Source: Halocynthiibacter sp. SDUM655004 (GTDB lineage: Bacteria > Pseudomonadota > Alphaproteobacteria > Rhodobacterales > Rhodobacteraceae). Taken from it: a stretch of 64,000 nt of DNA. A model generated the notes under the pieces. It was given only the letters and a program-made list of their open reading frames with translations, was not told where the DNA came from and did no database searches. The translations under genes and the position numbers were made by a program. Every line of letters starts with the position of its first letter. Position 1 is the stretch's first letter. Positions 48,989 to 55,534 of the stretch are shown here, piece after piece. Location: NCBI RefSeq assembly GCF_026015885.1, contig NZ_JAPDUG010000002.1, positions 806,001-870,000 of the forward strand, written 5' to 3'.

Positions 48989-49912
48989 ATGGAAAAATCA
49001 GCCAATACACCGACCACAAAATCAGGCGACCGGATCGCCAAAGTCCTAGCCCGAGCGGGCGTTGCGTCGCGCCGCGAGGCCGAGCGGATGATTGAAGCTG
49101 GTCGGGTATCGGTCAATGGCAAGGTAATAGACAGCCCCGCTTTGAACGTTACTGAAAAGGACAAGATCGAAGTCGACGGGAAGCCGCTTGCCGAACCAGA
49201 GCACGCACGTATGTGGCTTTACTATAAGCCGCTCGGCCTCGTGACGACAGAAAGCGACGAAAAAGGCCGAGAGACAGTATTTGACGCCCTGCCAGAAGAG
49301 TTGGGGCGCGTTTTGAGCGTTGGCCGGCTGGACATCAATTCGGAGGGGCTCCTGCTTCTAACGAATGACGGCGGCATTAAACGCAAGCTTGAGTTGCCTT
49401 CTACCGGATGGCTGCGCCGCTATCGCGTACGTGTGAATGGCCGCCCCGATGAAACAACCCTTGAACCGTTGCGCAAAGGGATCAGCGTGGATGGAGAAAC
49501 TTTCCAGCCCATGATCGTATCTCTAGACCGCCAACAAGGCGCAAACGCGTGGCTCACGGTCTCTATTCGCGAAGGTAAAAACCGCGAGATCCGGCGCGCT
49601 ATGGCGGCGATTGGGCTAACTGTGAACCGCTTGTTGCGTGTATCTTATGGTCCGTTCAGGCTTGGAGAACTTAAGCCCGGTGAGGTCGAAGAAGTGAAGC
49701 AGCGTGTCCTACGCGACCAACTCGGCCTCGCGCAGGATGAAGGGAAACCTTCAAAGCCAATGCCAGTGCGAAAACGCAAAGAACTTGCAACAAAAGGCAA
49801 GGCAGCAGGTTTCAAGGGAGCGGCGAAATCTGGCGCTTTCGGTGCAAAATCCGCGAAGAAGCCACGCAAGACAACAAGCGCTCGACCACCGCATAAGCGC
49901 AATAAATCCTAG
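48989..49912 (+). CDS. RsuA/RluB-family rRNA pseudouridine synthase
   Basis: Modifies uridine in ribosomal RNA, most likely U2605 of 23S rRNA as RluB does (assignment by resemblance). The 307-residue protein has an N-terminal S4 domain (RIAKVLARAGVASRREAERMIEAG, about 14-37), the catalytic GRLDINSEGLLLLTND (Asp, about 113), RKIRRAMAAIGLTVNRL-type end motif KNREIRRAMAAIGLTV and a basic C-terminal tail (about 250-307, KGAAKSGAFGAKSAKKPRKT) that may bind RNA. It is divergent from tadA across 75 bp. Confidence 0.92.
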   Translation: MEKSANTPTTKSGDRIAKVLARAGVASRREAERMIEAGRVSVNGKVIDSPALNVTEKDKIEVDGKPLAEPEHARMWLYYKPLGLVTTESDEKGRETVFDALPEELGRVLSVGRLDINSEGLLLLTNDGGIKRKLELPSTGWLRRYRVRVNGRPDETTLEPLRKGISVDGETFQPMIVSLDRQQGANAWLTVSIREGKNREIRRAMAAIGLTVNRLLRVSYGPFRLGELKPGEVEEVKQRVLRDQLGLAQDEGKPSKPMPVRKRKELATKGKAAGFKGAAKSGAFGAKSAKKPRKTTSARPPHKRNKS

Positions 49913-50107
49913 GCGATTTCGCGACTGTAAGCTCCTTAAGCGACAGGCAAGAATTTTAAGCGCGCCAGCTTCGAATGGGGCAGCGCATTCTGTCGTGCTT
50001 CGCTCATCCGAAATTTCCCCCTTAAAAATTCGGGTCATGCGCTAGCATGAATCGGTGTACTGCCCTATATCTTAAAGTAATTTTAAAGCACCCGCATGGG
50101 GGAATTC

Positions 50108-50191
50108 ATGGCTGGGACAGGTATTCAAAAACTTGCGTTCATTCTTTTGGTGGTATTGACGCTTTATGTTTCAATCTCCGGAGGGGCATAA
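50108..50191 (+). CDS. 27-residue membrane peptide heading the XpaC-TelA operon
   Basis: Short frame starting MAGTGIQKLAF and continuing with a single hydrophobic helix (FILLVVLTLYVSI) and a SGGA end. GGGGGA lies 4 bases before the ATG. The stop TAA shares its last base with the ATG of the XpaC gene (TAATG), so translation is probably coupled. The ribosome-binding site of XpaC lies within its last codons. It reads as a real, single-span membrane peptide; no homologue is known to me. Confidence 0.65.
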   Translation: MAGTGIQKLAFILLVVLTLYVSISGGA

Positions 50192-51069
50192 TGGCCCAGC
50201 GCTTCGGAGGGAAATACAGCCCGAACGGCGCGACAGAGGGGCAATCTCAGCCCCCTTCACACCCGTTTCGCGGCAAGAAACCGGCGCGCGCTGCCGCGCG
50301 ACTTAACGTCCTTTTCTTTACCCCGCTGCCACTTGCCCTGCTCGCGTTCTTTCGCGAGCCCGCTCAAATGGCTCTCTCTCTCCTCGCAGTAGCGCTGCTG
50401 TTGGCGGCTGCGTGGCTTACCCGTGAAGGTGTACTTGCCCACGAAGCTTATGATTCAAGGCGCGTTGCCCGAAAACCCGCGTTTCCACGCAAGATATTTG
50501 GCTCGGTTTTAACTGGCTGTGGGCTTGGTGTTGCCGGACTTGCTGGCGGCGGCGAAGTGTTTGAAGCTGGCCTCTATTTTACTTTGGGGTCTGCACTTCA
50601 TTTGATTTCGTTCGGCCCTGACCCTTTGAAATCCAAAGGGACCGAAGGTGCAGACGAATTTCAACAAGATCGGGTTGCCCGCGCAGTTGCAGAAGCGGAA
50701 AAACACCTTGAGTACATGTCAAAGGCGATCCGACGTGCGGAAGACCGACAGCTAATTGCTCGCGTCGAACAGTTCCAGACTGTCGCGCGCGATCTCTTTC
50801 GGACCGTTGAGGAAGATCCGCGCGACCTTTCCGCCGCACGTCGCTACATGGGCGTCTATCTAATGGGTGCACGAGACGCGACAACCAAATTTGCCGACAT
50901 TTACAGCCGCACGCAGAACCAGCAAGCCAGACTAGACTACGAGAATTTACTTACTGACCTTGAAACAAATTTCGCAGCCCGCACGCGTTCACTTCTAGAA
51001 GCGGACAAAGGCGATCTTGATGTTGAAATCGAAGTCCTTCGAGAGCGCTTAGCGCGCGAAGGTGTATAG
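50191..51069 (+). CDS. XpaC-like (5-bromo-4-chloroindolyl phosphate hydrolysis) protein
   Basis: Protein of 292 residues of the XpaC family. The N-terminus is polar and disordered (AQRFGGKYSPNGATEGQSQPP). Two hydrophobic segments follow at about 40-78 (LNVLFFTPLPLALLAFF, MALSLLAVALLLAAAWLT), and a glycine-rich pair at about 105-140 (IFGSVLTGCGLGVAGLAGG). The C-terminal 140 residues form a charged, helical cytoplasmic domain. XpaC often stands beside TelA. The name comes from a Bacillus phenotype; the real activity is unknown. It starts with TAATG on the small peptide gene, and TelA follows 8 bp later. Confidence 0.85.
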   Translation: MAQRFGGKYSPNGATEGQSQPPSHPFRGKKPARAAARLNVLFFTPLPLALLAFFREPAQMALSLLAVALLLAAAWLTREGVLAHEAYDSRRVARKPAFPRKIFGSVLTGCGLGVAGLAGGGEVFEAGLYFTLGSALHLISFGPDPLKSKGTEGADEFQQDRVARAVAEAEKHLEYMSKAIRRAEDRQLIARVEQFQTVARDLFRTVEEDPRDLSAARRYMGVYLMGARDATTKFADIYSRTQNQQARLDYENLLTDLETNFAARTRSLLEADKGDLDVEIEVLRERLAREGV

Positions 51070-51077
51070 GGGGAATT

Positions 51078-52265
51078 ATGGACGAAAACATTCGCAAACA
51101 AGCCGAGAAAGCAACCGAATTGGTTGAAGAGGTCGCAAAAGTTGAGCTGGCAGAGCCCTCAAACAGCCTTGTTTCACTCAAGGAAGCCGAACCACCTATC
51201 GCGGAAGAAATCCAAAAACGTATGGATGAGTTAGATCTGACTGATACAGGATCAATTGTGAACTTCGGTTCATCCGCACAAGCAGAGTTGCAAACCATTT
51301 CGCAAGCTATGCTGAGCGATGTGAAGAATAAGGATGTCGGCCCCGCTGGTGACAGCCTGAGAAGCATTGTTTCGACGATACGCGGCTTTAGTGTTTCTGA
51401 GCTAGACGTTCGGCGGAAGCGCAGTTGGTGGGAACGCCTCACCGGACGCGCCGCTCCTTTTGCAAAATTTCTTGCAAAGTTCGAGGACGTTCAGGGGCAA
51501 ATCGACAAGATTACTGACAGCCTCCTCACACATGAGCACAAGCTGCTGAAGGATATTAAGTCGCTTGATAACCTGTATGACAAGACCCTGAGCTTCTATG
51601 ATGAACTCGGGCTGTACATCACAGCAGGCGAAGAAAAAATCGAAGAACTCGACACAAAGACCATTCCAGAGAAAGAGGCTGCAGTTAACAAAGCCGCCGA
51701 AAACGACGCTGTGATGGCGGCCCAAGAGCTTCGTGACATTCGCGCAGCACGGGATGATCTTGAGCGTCGCGTTCACGACCTAAAGCTTACACGACAAGTC
51801 ACAATGCAGAGTTTGCCGTCCATTCGTCTCGTACAAGAGAATGACAAATCTCTCGTTACGAAAATCAACTCTACTTTGGTCAACACCGTTCCGCTTTGGG
51901 AAACCCAATTGGCCCAAGCCGTCACAATTCAACGCAGCTCCGAAGCAGCACATGCCGTTAGAGATGCAAATGATTTGACGAACGAATTGCTAACTGCCAA
52001 CGCCGATAACCTTCGCCAAGCCAACAAAGTTGTCAGAGAAGAAATGGAGCGTGGTGTATTCGATATTGAGGCCGTGAAAGCAGCGAATGAAACTCTGATC
52101 GGTACAATCAACGATAGCCTTGCCATCGCTGACGAAGGCAAACGCCGACGCGCCGAAGCAGAAGAAGAGCTTGTCCGTCTCGAGCACGAGCTTAAAGAAA
52201 CTCTCGCATCAGCAAAGGCGCGCGGAGACAAGACCGGAAGTGAAATCGGGACGTCCGTGAACTAA
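51078..52265 (+). CDS. TelA-type toxic anion resistance protein
   Basis: Soluble, almost entirely helical protein of 395 residues of the TelA family. Typical segments: SIVNFGSSAQAELQTISQAML (about 55-75), FEDVQGQIDKITDSLLTHEHKLLKDIKSLDNLYD and QSLPSIRLVQENDKSLVTKINSTLVNTVPLWETQLAQAV. Family members are associated with tellurite and other envelope stresses; the mechanism is not known. GGGGGAATT precedes the ATG. Its stop shares a base with the next start (TAATG). Confidence 0.9.
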   Translation: MDENIRKQAEKATELVEEVAKVELAEPSNSLVSLKEAEPPIAEEIQKRMDELDLTDTGSIVNFGSSAQAELQTISQAMLSDVKNKDVGPAGDSLRSIVSTIRGFSVSELDVRRKRSWWERLTGRAAPFAKFLAKFEDVQGQIDKITDSLLTHEHKLLKDIKSLDNLYDKTLSFYDELGLYITAGEEKIEELDTKTIPEKEAAVNKAAENDAVMAAQELRDIRAARDDLERRVHDLKLTRQVTMQSLPSIRLVQENDKSLVTKINSTLVNTVPLWETQLAQAVTIQRSSEAAHAVRDANDLTNELLTANADNLRQANKVVREEMERGVFDIEAVKAANETLIGTINDSLAIADEGKRRRAEAEEELVRLEHELKETLASAKARGDKTGSEIGTSVN

Positions 52266-53224
52266 TGAGCACAGTCCGGCGCGCATTAAAAACTGTTGGA
52301 GCAGCGAGCATTCTTTTGCTCGCTGCCTGTCAGAGCGCGCCGCCACCAATGCCGATGCCGAAACCGCGCCCAGAAGCCCCTGCGCCGACGCGCTCGGAAC
52401 TGAGTGAGTTCTATATTCAGCATTTCGCTAGCCTCCAAGAAGACTATCTTGTTCGCGGTTTGCTGCGCACGGATGGAGGCGGCGTTGACGTTCCGTTTGA
52501 CGCGAACGACCTCACGCAGAATTTTATGAAAATCGCATTCTTTGCGGAGTTTTCGCCGCTCAACGACCGCCTCATCGCGCAGGAAATGGCAACACCCCTA
52601 CGTCGTTGGGAAAGACCCGTTGTTATCAGCGTCGAGTTCGGAGAGTCTGTTTCACCGGAAAGCCGCCGCAAAGATACATCTGAAGTCGAGCGATTTGCGC
52701 GCAGGCTGGCATCGGCAACAAAGCATCCTATTTCAACAGGATCGGCAAGGAACGCTAATCTTCATGTGCTGATTTTGAACGAGGATGAACGGCGCGAAAT
52801 AGCGCCTCTCTTGCAAGAGTACGTACCCGGCATTGCTCAAAGAGAAGTCAACGCACTGATAAACATCACGAAAAATGACCTGTGCATCACTCAATCCCAC
52901 AGCGAAAGCGGCAACCCCAACGTCATAGGAAGCGCGGTTGTTATCATTCGAGAAGAGCATCCAGACTTGCTTCGCCAAAGCTGCATTCACGAAGAAATTG
53001 CGCAAAGCCTAGGACTATCAAACGACAGCGATGCCGCGCGACCATCGATTTTCAACGATGACGAGGAGTTCGCTTTGCTAACGACACATGACGAGCAACT
53101 GCTTCGAATTTTATATGACTCTCGGCTTTCCGCTGGAATGGATGCGAGTACGGCCCGCCCGATCGTCAATGAAATTGCCACAGAATTGATGGGTGGCGAA
53201 AAGATAGCCCAATCAGGGAGGTAG
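52265..53224 (+). CDS. DUF2927 lipoprotein
   Basis: Probable lipoprotein of 319 residues. The signal ends in the lipobox LLAAC (Cys22), followed by a Pro-rich linker (SAPPPMPMPKPRPEAPAPT). The DUF2927 domain contains CIHEEIAQSLGLSNDSD at about 240-256, resembling a HExxH-type metallopeptidase site in which the last histidine is Gln. SIFNDDEEFALLTTHDEQLLRILYD is a later conserved stretch. It is coupled to TelA by TAATG and is followed 2 bp later by the SPFH gene. Possible peptidase activity is unproven. Confidence 0.82.
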   Translation: MSTVRRALKTVGAASILLLAACQSAPPPMPMPKPRPEAPAPTRSELSEFYIQHFASLQEDYLVRGLLRTDGGGVDVPFDANDLTQNFMKIAFFAEFSPLNDRLIAQEMATPLRRWERPVVISVEFGESVSPESRRKDTSEVERFARRLASATKHPISTGSARNANLHVLILNEDERREIAPLLQEYVPGIAQREVNALINITKNDLCITQSHSESGNPNVIGSAVVIIREEHPDLLRQSCIHEEIAQSLGLSNDSDAARPSIFNDDEEFALLTTHDEQLLRILYDSRLSAGMDASTARPIVNEIATELMGGEKIAQSGR

Positions 53225-53226
53225 AA

Positions 53227-54330
53227 ATGGGAATTTTTGATTTTCTTACCGGTGAGTTCATTGATGTCATTCATTGGACCGACGACACGCGCGATACCAT
53301 GGTTTGGCGATTTGAGCGTGAAGGACACGAGATTAAGTACGGTGCAAAGCTGACTGTTCGTGAAGGGCAGGCCGCAGTTTTCATCCACGAGGGGCAACTG
53401 GCGGATGTCTTCACGCCCGGACTCTACCTTCTTGAAACCAACAATATGCCCGTACTGACAACGCTGCAGCACTGGGACCATGGCTTCAAAAGCCCCTTCA
53501 AATCCGAAATTTATTTTGTGAACACCACTCGGTTCAACGACCTTAAGTGGGGGACGAAGAATCCGATCATTTGCCGCGATCCTGAGTTTGGTCCGGTGCG
53601 CCTACGGGCTTATGGCACCTATAGTGTGCGTGTGTCCGACCCGGCGGTATTTCTGCGCGAGATTGTCGGGACCGATGGTGAATTCACGATGGATGAGATA
53701 AGCTTCCAGATACGAAATATAATCGTTCAAGAGTTTAGCCGTTCGATTGCCGGAAGCGGCATTCCAGTCTTGGACATGGCGGCAAACACCGCTGACTTGA
53801 GCAAACTCATAGCCAGTCAGATCAGCGCCCAAGTCGCAGAGTATGGACTGGTTTTACCCGAATTATACATCGAAAATATAAGCCTACCCCCAGCAGTAGA
53901 AGCAGCCCTCGACAAAAGGACATCGGTCGGAATTGTTGGAGACATGGCAACCTACACCCAGTTCTCCGCTGCTGAAGCGATGACAGCCGCTGCACAAAAC
54001 CCAGCGGGCGGCGGAATGGCCGCCGGCATGGGGGCCGGAATGGGGCTCGCCATGGCGGGCCAACTCGCTGGACCGTGGGGGCCAAGACCCGCCTCTCCTC
54101 CCAGCGCACCTCCGCCGCCACCGGTTGAAAAAGTATGGCACATCGCAAAAAATGGTGAAACAACAGGCCCATTCTCTAGGGCAACTATGGGGCAAATGGC
54201 GACCGACGGGCGCCTCACACGCGAAAGCTTAGTTTGGACCGCTGGGCTCGATGGGTGGAAGAAAGCAGAAGACGTTTCAGACCTCGCAACCCTGTTTACG
54301 GTGCTACCCCCACCGCCCCCGCTACCTTAG
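53227..54330 (+). CDS. SPFH-domain protein with C-terminal GYF-like domain
   Basis: Protein of 367 residues. The N-terminus (about 1-245) is an SPFH/virion-core-like domain of the B. subtilis YdjI type (IHWTDDTRDTMVWRFE..., GAKLTVREGQAAVFI, LPELYIENISLPPAVEAALDK). A Gly/Ala- and Pro-rich linker (about 258-302) leads to a GYF_2-like domain (WHIAKNGETTGPFSRATM...LVWTAGLDGWKKAEDV, about 306-355), which usually binds proline-rich peptides. The C-terminus ends LPPPPPLP, itself Pro-rich. It is likely a membrane-recruiting scaffold. AGGGAGG lies upstream. Confidence 0.85.
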   Translation: MGIFDFLTGEFIDVIHWTDDTRDTMVWRFEREGHEIKYGAKLTVREGQAAVFIHEGQLADVFTPGLYLLETNNMPVLTTLQHWDHGFKSPFKSEIYFVNTTRFNDLKWGTKNPIICRDPEFGPVRLRAYGTYSVRVSDPAVFLREIVGTDGEFTMDEISFQIRNIIVQEFSRSIAGSGIPVLDMAANTADLSKLIASQISAQVAEYGLVLPELYIENISLPPAVEAALDKRTSVGIVGDMATYTQFSAAEAMTAAAQNPAGGGMAAGMGAGMGLAMAGQLAGPWGPRPASPPSAPPPPPVEKVWHIAKNGETTGPFSRATMGQMATDGRLTRESLVWTAGLDGWKKAEDVSDLATLFTVLPPPPPLP

Positions 54331-54370
54331 AAGCGAGCCTTTTGGGTATGGGATTTGAGGACATTCAGAT

Positions 54371-55450
54371 ATGAACAGCCCCCACGAGGAACACCGTTTC
54401 CCCTGTGAGCAATGTGGTGCGGATCTTAGGTTTTCGCCCGAGACAGGCGTCTTAACCTGCGATCATTGCGGGTTTACCGAAACTGCGGAGAACCCTACCT
54501 CCCCTGAAATTCTAGAGTTGGATTTTCAAGATGCGTTAAGTAATTCGCTGTCCGAAGAACAGTTAGAAGAACGACGCGTCACCAATTGTACAAATTGTGG
54601 CGCTCAAATCACCTTTGATGAGCAGGTCCACGCGGACGAATGCCCGTTTTGTGCCACACCGGTCGTGACTGATACAGGCTTGCATCGCGTGATAAAGCCG
54701 AAAGCGGTTCTCCCTTTTGCTATTCCTGAGAGCGAAGCGCACGATCATATGGAAAAGTGGCTCGGCAGGCTTTGGTTCGCTCCAAACGGGCTTGCCGCTT
54801 ACGCACGTAAAGGGCGCAAAATGCAAGGTGTGTACATACCTTACTGGACGTATGACGCCCAAACCAAAACTCGGTACACTGGCGGCAGAGGAACTGAATA
54901 TACAACAACCAAAACAGTTGTCATTGATGGCAAGCGGCAAAAACGAACTGTTGTGAAAGTTCGGTGGGTTTCTGTCTCCGGTCGGGTATCGCGATTTTTT
55001 GATGACGTTTTGGTTATGGCAAGCCATTCGCTTCCTAAGGGTTACTCAGATGGCTTGCATCCGTGGGACCTCTCATCTCTTGAAACCTATCAGCCACGCT
55101 TTCTTGCCGGTTTTATGTCGGAGGGATACTCAGTTGGACTTGATGAAGGCTTCATTATTGCAAAAGACGTTATGGCCAACCGAATTCGCCGAGACATTCG
55201 TTTCGATATCGGGGGAGACCGTCAAAGAATTGATCGCGCCGAAACTCAGTACTCCGACATAACATTTAAGCACATTTTAGCTCCGATCTGGATGGCCGCA
55301 TACAAGTACAGAGGGAAGTCCTATCGCTTTGTTGTAAATGGCCAAACCGGGAAGGTTCAAGGAGAACGTCCCTATTCAATTTGGAAGATCTTGTTTGCGG
55401 TATTGCTTGCAGTGATAGCGCTTGCCGCAGGTATGTATTTCACGCAGTGA
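54371..55450 (+). CDS. Double zinc-ribbon membrane protein (YdjG-like)
   Basis: Protein of 359 residues. Two zinc ribbons lie at the N-terminus: CEQCG...CDHCG (about 11-34) and CTNCG...CPFCA (about 72-97). The middle part (about 110-330) is a beta-rich domain with VYIPYWTYDAQTKTRYTGGRG. One transmembrane helix near the C-terminus (IWKILFAVLLAVIALAAGMYF, about 336-356) anchors it, leaving the zinc ribbons in the cytoplasm. It resembles YdjG of B. subtilis, which works with the SPFH protein YdjI at the membrane. It starts 40 bp after the SPFH gene; a terminator-type hairpin follows. Confidence 0.82.
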   Translation: MNSPHEEHRFPCEQCGADLRFSPETGVLTCDHCGFTETAENPTSPEILELDFQDALSNSLSEEQLEERRVTNCTNCGAQITFDEQVHADECPFCATPVVTDTGLHRVIKPKAVLPFAIPESEAHDHMEKWLGRLWFAPNGLAAYARKGRKMQGVYIPYWTYDAQTKTRYTGGRGTEYTTTKTVVIDGKRQKRTVVKVRWVSVSGRVSRFFDDVLVMASHSLPKGYSDGLHPWDLSSLETYQPRFLAGFMSEGYSVGLDEGFIIAKDVMANRIRRDIRFDIGGDRQRIDRAETQYSDITFKHILAPIWMAAYKYRGKSYRFVVNGQTGKVQGERPYSIWKILFAVLLAVIALAAGMYFTQ

Positions 55451-55499
55451 CGCTTTTGGTATTGTCTGGCGATTAACGCGCCTAGCGCTCTCTCAAATA

Positions 55500-55528
55500 T
55501 GGCCCACCGAACTAAACCCGGTGGGCCA
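55500..55528. terminator. Hairpin terminator between the stress operon and the chemoreceptor
   Basis: TGGCCCACCG and CGGTGGGCCA form a perfect 10-bp stem with a 9-nt loop, 50 bp after the zinc-ribbon gene and before the convergent chemoreceptor stop. T-runs are short on both sides. Confidence 0.7.
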
Positions 55529-55534
55529 TTACAT

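Follow-up and report, generated by a model that had tools for sequence, protein, structure and literature searches.

A conserved gene block of Halocynthiibacter and other Rhodobacterales joins XpaC and TelA to an SPFH and zinc-ribbon pair, a candidate envelope-stress module

TelA and XpaC are widespread protein families whose names come from phenotypes that do not explain them. In a 64,000-nucleotide stretch of the genome of Halocynthiibacter sp. SDUM655004 (assembly GCF_026015885.1, contig NZ_JAPDUG010000002.1, positions 806,001 to 870,000; hereafter the window, always at its full length), both are encoded in a six-gene block at 50108-55450 that continues into genes for an SPFH protein and a zinc-ribbon protein (ZnR), and the locus raises the question of whether these two halves serve one function. 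The original prediction, made from the sequence alone, was that the six genes form a single envelope-stress module coupling a TelA/XpaC unit to an SPFH scaffold. We find that the six-gene combination is real, that it is widely conserved in a large, mostly marine bacterial group and that it is built from known parts; we give an even chance to the reading that Rhodobacterales, and certain further Alphaproteobacteria, have here a single operon for one envelope-stress module, with TelA/XpaC working together with an SPFH scaffold. The role in envelope stress is itself suggested by analogy with known systems. The six genes are as follows.

50108..50191, + strand: 27-residue single-pass membrane peptide (open reading frame; hydrophobic at residues 9-27)
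50191..51069, + strand: XpaC (PF10112), membrane protein (Pfam 8e-29; clear hydrophobic segments at residues 36-54 and 58-76; family domain 130-283)
51078..52265, + strand: TelA (PF05816; Pfam 9e-106; long helices predicted, and a search for membrane segments gave none)
52265..53224, + strand: DUF2927 lipoprotein (PF11150; Pfam 1e-57; predicted matrixin fold at about residues 86-287)
53227..54330, + strand: SPFH protein (Band_7_1, PF13421; Pfam 7e-100) with a C-terminal GYF_2 domain (PF14237, residues 304-353; 1e-20) and a polyproline tail
54371..55450, + strand: YdjG-type zinc-ribbon protein, ZnR (two N-terminal zinc ribbons, a conserved middle domain and a C-terminal membrane segment at residues 340-358)

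The coordinates confirm the compact arrangement first described, with all six genes on one strand, TAATG junctions at 50189-50193 and 52263-52267, and gaps of 8, 2 and 40 bases at the remaining boundaries; the putative operon would be transcribed as a single unit. Profile searches against Pfam assigned XpaC, TelA, DUF2927 and SPFH-GYF to the families proposed for them, and the succession of PF10112 and PF05816 on one strand is that of an XpaC-TelA (YaaN) unit. The zinc-ribbon protein gave weak zinc-ribbon matches in Pfam, all below the cut-off, and the 27-residue peptide gave no Pfam match. A search of the window genome returned this TelA as its single match to the family.

Co-conservation was surveyed in four samples. 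A scan of named genomes for TelA gave at least 588 stretches, 584 of them confirmed, of which the best 80 were kept; these are all close relatives (73-78% identity) rather than an even sample, and they overlap with the relatives sample, which covers up to 20 kb around TelA from 24 relatives and was searched with profiles that had been built from the window's own proteins. The class sample comprises 289 genomes (SPFH at E < 1e-50, TelA above the family cut-off), from which 24 TelA loci were fetched and searched with the same window-derived profiles; the 6 weakest of its 33 TelA matches were left out, 4 of these lying below the family cut-off. The phylum sample consists of 348 evenly drawn genomes (TelA at E ≤ 1e-10, SPFH at E ≤ 1e-20), with 27 genomes of the window's family among those listed, nearest kin first.

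Among the 80 named-genome loci, XpaC lies upstream of TelA in all 80 and DUF2927 is likewise present in 80/80, with a same-strand SPFH gene in 78, a same-strand downstream ZnR gene in 68, and the same gene order in 68. Seven of the 12 loci without a downstream ZnR end at a contig end (the others are L103, L116, L151, L157 and L158); at least one gene is fragmented in each of L103, L112 and L137, XpaC being affected in L103 and L137. At the 27 family loci, window included, XpaC was found at 26, DUF2927 at 24, SPFH at 25 and ZnR at 24, and one locus ends within SPFH. In the phylum sample TelA occurs in 67 genomes and strong SPFH in 49; 26 of the 27 family genomes listed have both and one has neither, and in all 26 TelA and SPFH share contig and strand and lie within 3 kb of each other, with a gap too short for DUF2927 in three (G468, G564, G592). 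The order XpaC-TelA-SPFH-ZnR, without DUF2927, recurs in six loci from four further alphaproteobacterial families (f48, f102, f114, f142). Outside Alphaproteobacteria, the phylum sample holds 12 genomes with TelA, 21 with SPFH and 4 with both, and in none of these 4 are the two linked, since they always lie on different contigs; two class members outside the family also carry both genes unlinked. Because linkage was seen nowhere else in this sample, the two halves appear to be joined only in alphaproteobacteria, as far as sampled. A lack of co-conservation was thus looked for in all four samples and did not occur. What changes is the membership of the predicted six-gene module: the XpaC-TelA-SPFH-ZnR core is kept together, while DUF2927, absent from 6/6 core-bearing loci outside the family, is an add-on and not part of the core.

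Several observations weigh against a single module. In the class sample SPFH adjoins TelA in 11 of the 16 genomes with strong SPFH, leaving 5 without an adjoining TelA, and 17 of the 28 genomes with TelA above the cut-off lack an adjoining SPFH. TelA is missing from 2/25 family genomes in the relatives sample (present in 23/25), 2/27 family loci carry only XpaC-TelA, and SPFH-ZnR pairs without a nearby TelA occur on Vibrio, Comamonas and Tsukamurella plasmids. One of the XpaC-TelA-only relatives carries DUF2927-SPFH-ZnR as a separate same-strand block at a distance of about 35 kb, which places the seam of the module between TelA and DUF2927. ZnR is split over two overlapping frames in the window's genus-mate (L027), either by a frameshift or by a sequence error, and a promoter-like element upstream of the operon, described below, is confined to 23-31 of the 81 upstream regions, depending on its form. 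A single origin of the linked TelA is a separate matter; the TelA tree requires at least three changes (one gain and two losses would fit), with its inner branches open and long branches disturbing it.

In a rival account XpaC-TelA and (DUF2927)-SPFH-ZnR would be two functionally separate envelope-resistance units that form no joint complex and have a common promoter only because they respond to one kind of stress. Each half does occur alone elsewhere, one relative is split exactly between TelA and DUF2927, and in Bacillus subtilis the corresponding genes are co-regulated yet lie in separate operons, according to PMC3498285; on the other hand, genes overlap here, and the order is constant across the family and four more families. 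The step from a shared operon to a shared complex is the weak one in the argument for a single module, and the two-unit account is a serious contender that we nevertheless hold to be the less probable of the two.

Comparison with known systems places each half of the operon. The passages of PMC3498285 list the B. subtilis operons xpaC-yaaN, yceC-yceH and pspA-ydjG-ydjH-ydjI all under sigma-W, and there it is xpaC-yaaN that is nearest to XpaC-TelA, so that YceH, which had been named as the Bacillus counterpart of TelA, gives way to YaaN. Bacillus xpaC-yaaN and Listeria lmo1966-1967 resemble the window in that a single (putative) operon holds both XpaC and TelA, but the window pair is preceded by a membrane micropeptide and continues into SPFH-ZnR. 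The KlaABC (kilA) region of IncP plasmids and the TerD-TelA regions also have a TelA family member, whereas the window operon lacks a TerD-family or KlaC-annotated neighbour, and these plasmid stretches gave no SPFH or ZnR match. The family name of TelA could be taken to mean that the operon confers resistance to tellurite or toxic anions, and TelA is indeed homologous to KlaB of the laboratory plasmid pUZ8002, which is annotated as tellurium resistance. We consider this very improbable: none of the six proteins belongs to any other tellurite-named family, the partner proteins are of the envelope-stress kind, and a Listeria TelA mutant, in the passages of PMC12791056 (citing Collins 2010), is more affected by nisin (4-fold more susceptible) than by tellurite (2-fold).

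The SPFH-ZnR half has its closest parallels in Firmicute operons. The window ZnR has four CxxC motifs, all within its first 94 residues; of the 68 ZnR proteins compared, 62 have four such motifs and 6 have three. The ZnR profile can be aligned almost end to end with the middle gene product of an SPFH-ZnR-TPM operon from Enterococcus gallinarum (L161; hhalign 99.95%, E 6.7e-38), which bears out the proposed YdjG type. As in that operon and in B. subtilis pspA-ydjGHI, a Band_7_1 SPFH gene adjoins a YdjG-type ZnR with a terminal membrane segment; unlike them, the window operon is without PspA or a TPM protein and is joined to XpaC-TelA. The SPFH proteins also differ at their ends. GYF_2 was present in 37/37 SPFH members scanned by Pfam (37 of the 73 available, window included), and a polyproline tail directly follows the GYF domain in 69/72 SPFH proteins; the two aligned forms lacking GYF, from Novosphingobium (L077) and Burkholderia (L079), have no such tail either. 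Proline-rich peptides are the ligands of GYF domains, and as the tail adjoins such a domain, self-assembly of SPFH is plausible. The Enterococcus SPFH, by contrast, ends in a double-zinc-ribbon-like region (below the cut-off), and YdjI ends in a zinc finger according to PMC8581546, which also states that membrane recruitment of YdjI and PspA requires YdjG and YdjH. On the Novosphingobium plasmid (L077), SPFH has a SHOCT-like end (below the cut-off) and stands beside DUF4178, DUF350 and polyamine genes, a neighbourhood that resembles the band-7 polyamine operons described in passages of PMC11237479.

None of the six proteins matches PF04012, in agreement with the predicted absence of PspA from the operon, and no PspA was found in the window genome, which is 98% complete. 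PspA is present in 5/25 family genomes and in 3/11 class-sample genomes with linked TelA-SPFH, against 48/278 of the others; the module and PspA are therefore not mutually exclusive, and this distribution lends no support to the module as a replacement for PspA, a further point against coupling of the kind proposed. No YdjH-type TPM match was obtained among the six proteins, the rest of the genome not having been searched for TPM. A survey of phage-shock-protein systems (PMC11237479) describes several band-7 operons, that of ydj among them, and its main text makes no mention of TelA or XpaC. No description of the six-gene combination was found in the literature searched, which lay mostly outside subscription papers and was judged by title, abstract start and passages; a Paracoccus TelA is among the stress proteins expressed in a plastic-biofilm metaproteome, in the passages of PMC11962581.

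The AlphaFold2 model of TelA is of low confidence (mean predicted local distance difference test, pLDDT, 71.9), and a fold search with this low-confidence model gave no match at E ≤ 0.001; the 50 matches listed were generic helical bundles, BAR domains and alpha-pore proteins, and the best VIA match (Z 12.3) lies within the range that helical models generally give. In this test, a weak one for TelA as a look-alike of PspA or ESCRT-III, no PspA or Vipp1 was among the matches listed; the result stands on the side against the module as proposed. By sequence, none of the five larger proteins had a relative of solved structure at E ≤ 0.001, the best being GYF against a gliding protein (0.004), and the DUF2927 profile gave none at that threshold either.

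The AlphaFold model of the DUF2927 protein, built from 58 sequences, is a confident one, with a pLDDT of 90.6 and a predicted template modelling score of 0.84. In Foldseek most of the 50 matches listed were matrix metalloproteinases, the top ones at probability ≥ 0.9, although no match reached E ≤ 0.001 (best 2.7e-3); in VIA all 50 matches listed were matrixins, covering DUF2927 residues of about 86-287, the best among them being karilysin (Z 11.5, root-mean-square deviation 3.0, 153 residues). No matrixin was found among solved structures by sequence with the DUF2927 profile. The active-helix positions of the window protein read E243-E244-x-x-Q247-x-x-G250-x-x-N253. Among the 80 loci, the zinc-ligand positions are E/Q/N in 78 and E/Q/D in one, the pattern not being found in another; the HExxHxxGxxH/D zinc site is not present in these operon proteins. 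One relative (L028) has a histidine at the second ligand position, and E244, the glutamate after the first ligand position, is invariant across the 58 aligned sequences. A distant DUF2927 protein of another family (L241:2695-3417), above the DUF2927 cut-off, fixes the register of the helix: it retains HELAHGFGFAH and, going by this motif, may be an active peptidase. The operon DUF2927 therefore resembles matrixin (metzincin) peptidases in predicted fold and differs from them in its ligand positions, in giving no peptidase family match in Pfam (58/58) and in being a lipoprotein, as first proposed and as suggested by a lipobox pattern within the first 45 residues of 70/80 proteins. It is probably a matrixin fold without its zinc ligands, and on the model it would be inactive as a peptidase and ligand-binding. 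No papers naming DUF2927 were found in the literature searched, and the matrixin-like prediction is a first hypothesis for this family. A second DUF2927 protein of the window genome lies outside the operon (G000 C2:1343750-1344352; L232:4151-5533, - strand; a frame of 461 amino acids) and has the identical E-E-x-x-Q-x-x-G-x-x-N helix pattern; in many genomes of the family DUF2927 matches number two or three.

The 27-residue membrane peptide at the head of the operon, which had been proposed as a gene, is conserved: it is recognisable in 60/80 named-genome loci, with a length of 25-30 residues in 57/60 (taking the start codon nearest to 27 residues), and 26 of these 60 copies have a stop codon that overlaps the ATG of the following gene. 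In the 17 copies that are exactly 27 residues long, 174, 95 and 309 differences from the window's copy fall at codon positions 1, 2 and 3, respectively, a pattern that identifies it as coding sequence.

Two further features flank the operon.

50042..50070, + strand: promoter-like element CTAG-N18-CCTATAT; 37 bases separate its end from the small gene
55499..55529, no strand: 11-bp perfect hairpin lying between the operon and a chemoreceptor-like gene convergent with it; it may be a terminator, but lacks a T run

The predicted hairpin beside the operon is thus the downstream one; none was found upstream in 49900-50110, and the convergent gene reads as chemoreceptor-like from its translation. 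CTAG-N18-CCTATAT is the sole match in the window, where 0.01 would be expected. The form CTAG-N18-C[CT]TA is found in 24/81 upstream regions, whereas other spacings from 12 to 24 gave 0 or 1 each and shuffled upstream regions at most 1 match; this fixed spacing suggests that the element is a promoter. It may resemble sigma-32 promoters. An expectation-maximisation motif search, seeded from the dyad count and with the start approximated where the small gene was unrecognised, returned a fuller motif, TTCCCCCTAG...CCCCTAAgTT, in 31/81 upstream regions; the window's element lacks its TTCCCC part. In 7 genomes selected for carrying the element, its strict form (0 mismatches) stands at the operon in all 7, with one extra site in one of them, and its reversed control gives 3 sites across 2; the strict form does not occur in the window genome. 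With 3 mismatches, counts fall below the reversed control in 8/8 genomes, so that no wider regulon was found and the element was rejected as part of a larger one.

Variants of the locus are also seen. A second XpaC-like gene lies immediately upstream of the operon in eleven loci (L090, L096, L098, L102, L114, L141, L147, L158, L159, L029, L045), TelA-DUF2927-SPFH-ZnR occurs without a recognisable XpaC on the Paracoccus plasmid pFER4 (L076) and in one relative (L047), and in L033, L052, L053 and L054 a small hydrophobic open reading frame, probably a multi-pass membrane protein, stands between SPFH and ZnR.

A Vibrio coralliilyticus plasmid (L075), on which an SPFH-ZnR pair is divergent from genes annotated as TIR-domain and TRAFs-binding, raises the thought of an anti-phage or conflict system. 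We think this very improbable, and the least likely of the readings considered: the operon is not patchy in the family (26/27 genomes listed in the phylum sample, 23/25 by TelA in the relatives sample), a PADLOC scan of the five larger proteins gave only weak zinc-ribbon similarities of ZnR (best 7e-4), and the Paracoccus and Pseudorhodobacter copies sit on very large replicons labelled plasmids.

Of the envelope-stress module originally predicted, then, the co-conserved unit, the YdjG-type ZnR, the lipoprotein and the lack of PspA stand, and the place of DUF2927 in the core does not. If the single-module reading holds, the tail-anchored ZnR would bring the soluble SPFH to the inner membrane, as YdjG/YdjH do for YdjI in B. 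subtilis, and binding of polyproline tails by GYF domains would crosslink SPFH assemblies. XpaC would anchor the soluble, long-helix TelA at the SPFH site, so that the scaffold would work together with TelA/XpaC, a role that PspA and the TPM protein YdjH fill in Bacillus; that the TelA/XpaC pair acts at this site is suggested by the YdjI/YdjG-like partners, the gene order here and the shared Bacillus regulon. In Rhodobacterales, the inactive-matrixin-fold lipoprotein would face the periplasm and bind, rather than cut, an envelope ligand. A more specific version, in which TelA/XpaC is a polymer-forming effector of PspA-independent membrane repair, recruited by a GYF-polyproline-crosslinked SPFH-ZnR scaffold, with the inactive matrixin lipoprotein sensing periplasmic damage in Rhodobacterales, is in our judgement rather unlikely.

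The operon linkage agrees with independent evidence, namely the shared sigma-W regulon in Bacillus, and a fixed TelA/XpaC-SPFH operon makes the function of TelA open to simple tests. The membrane-repair version, if true, would place the TelA/XpaC family in SPFH-based envelope repair.

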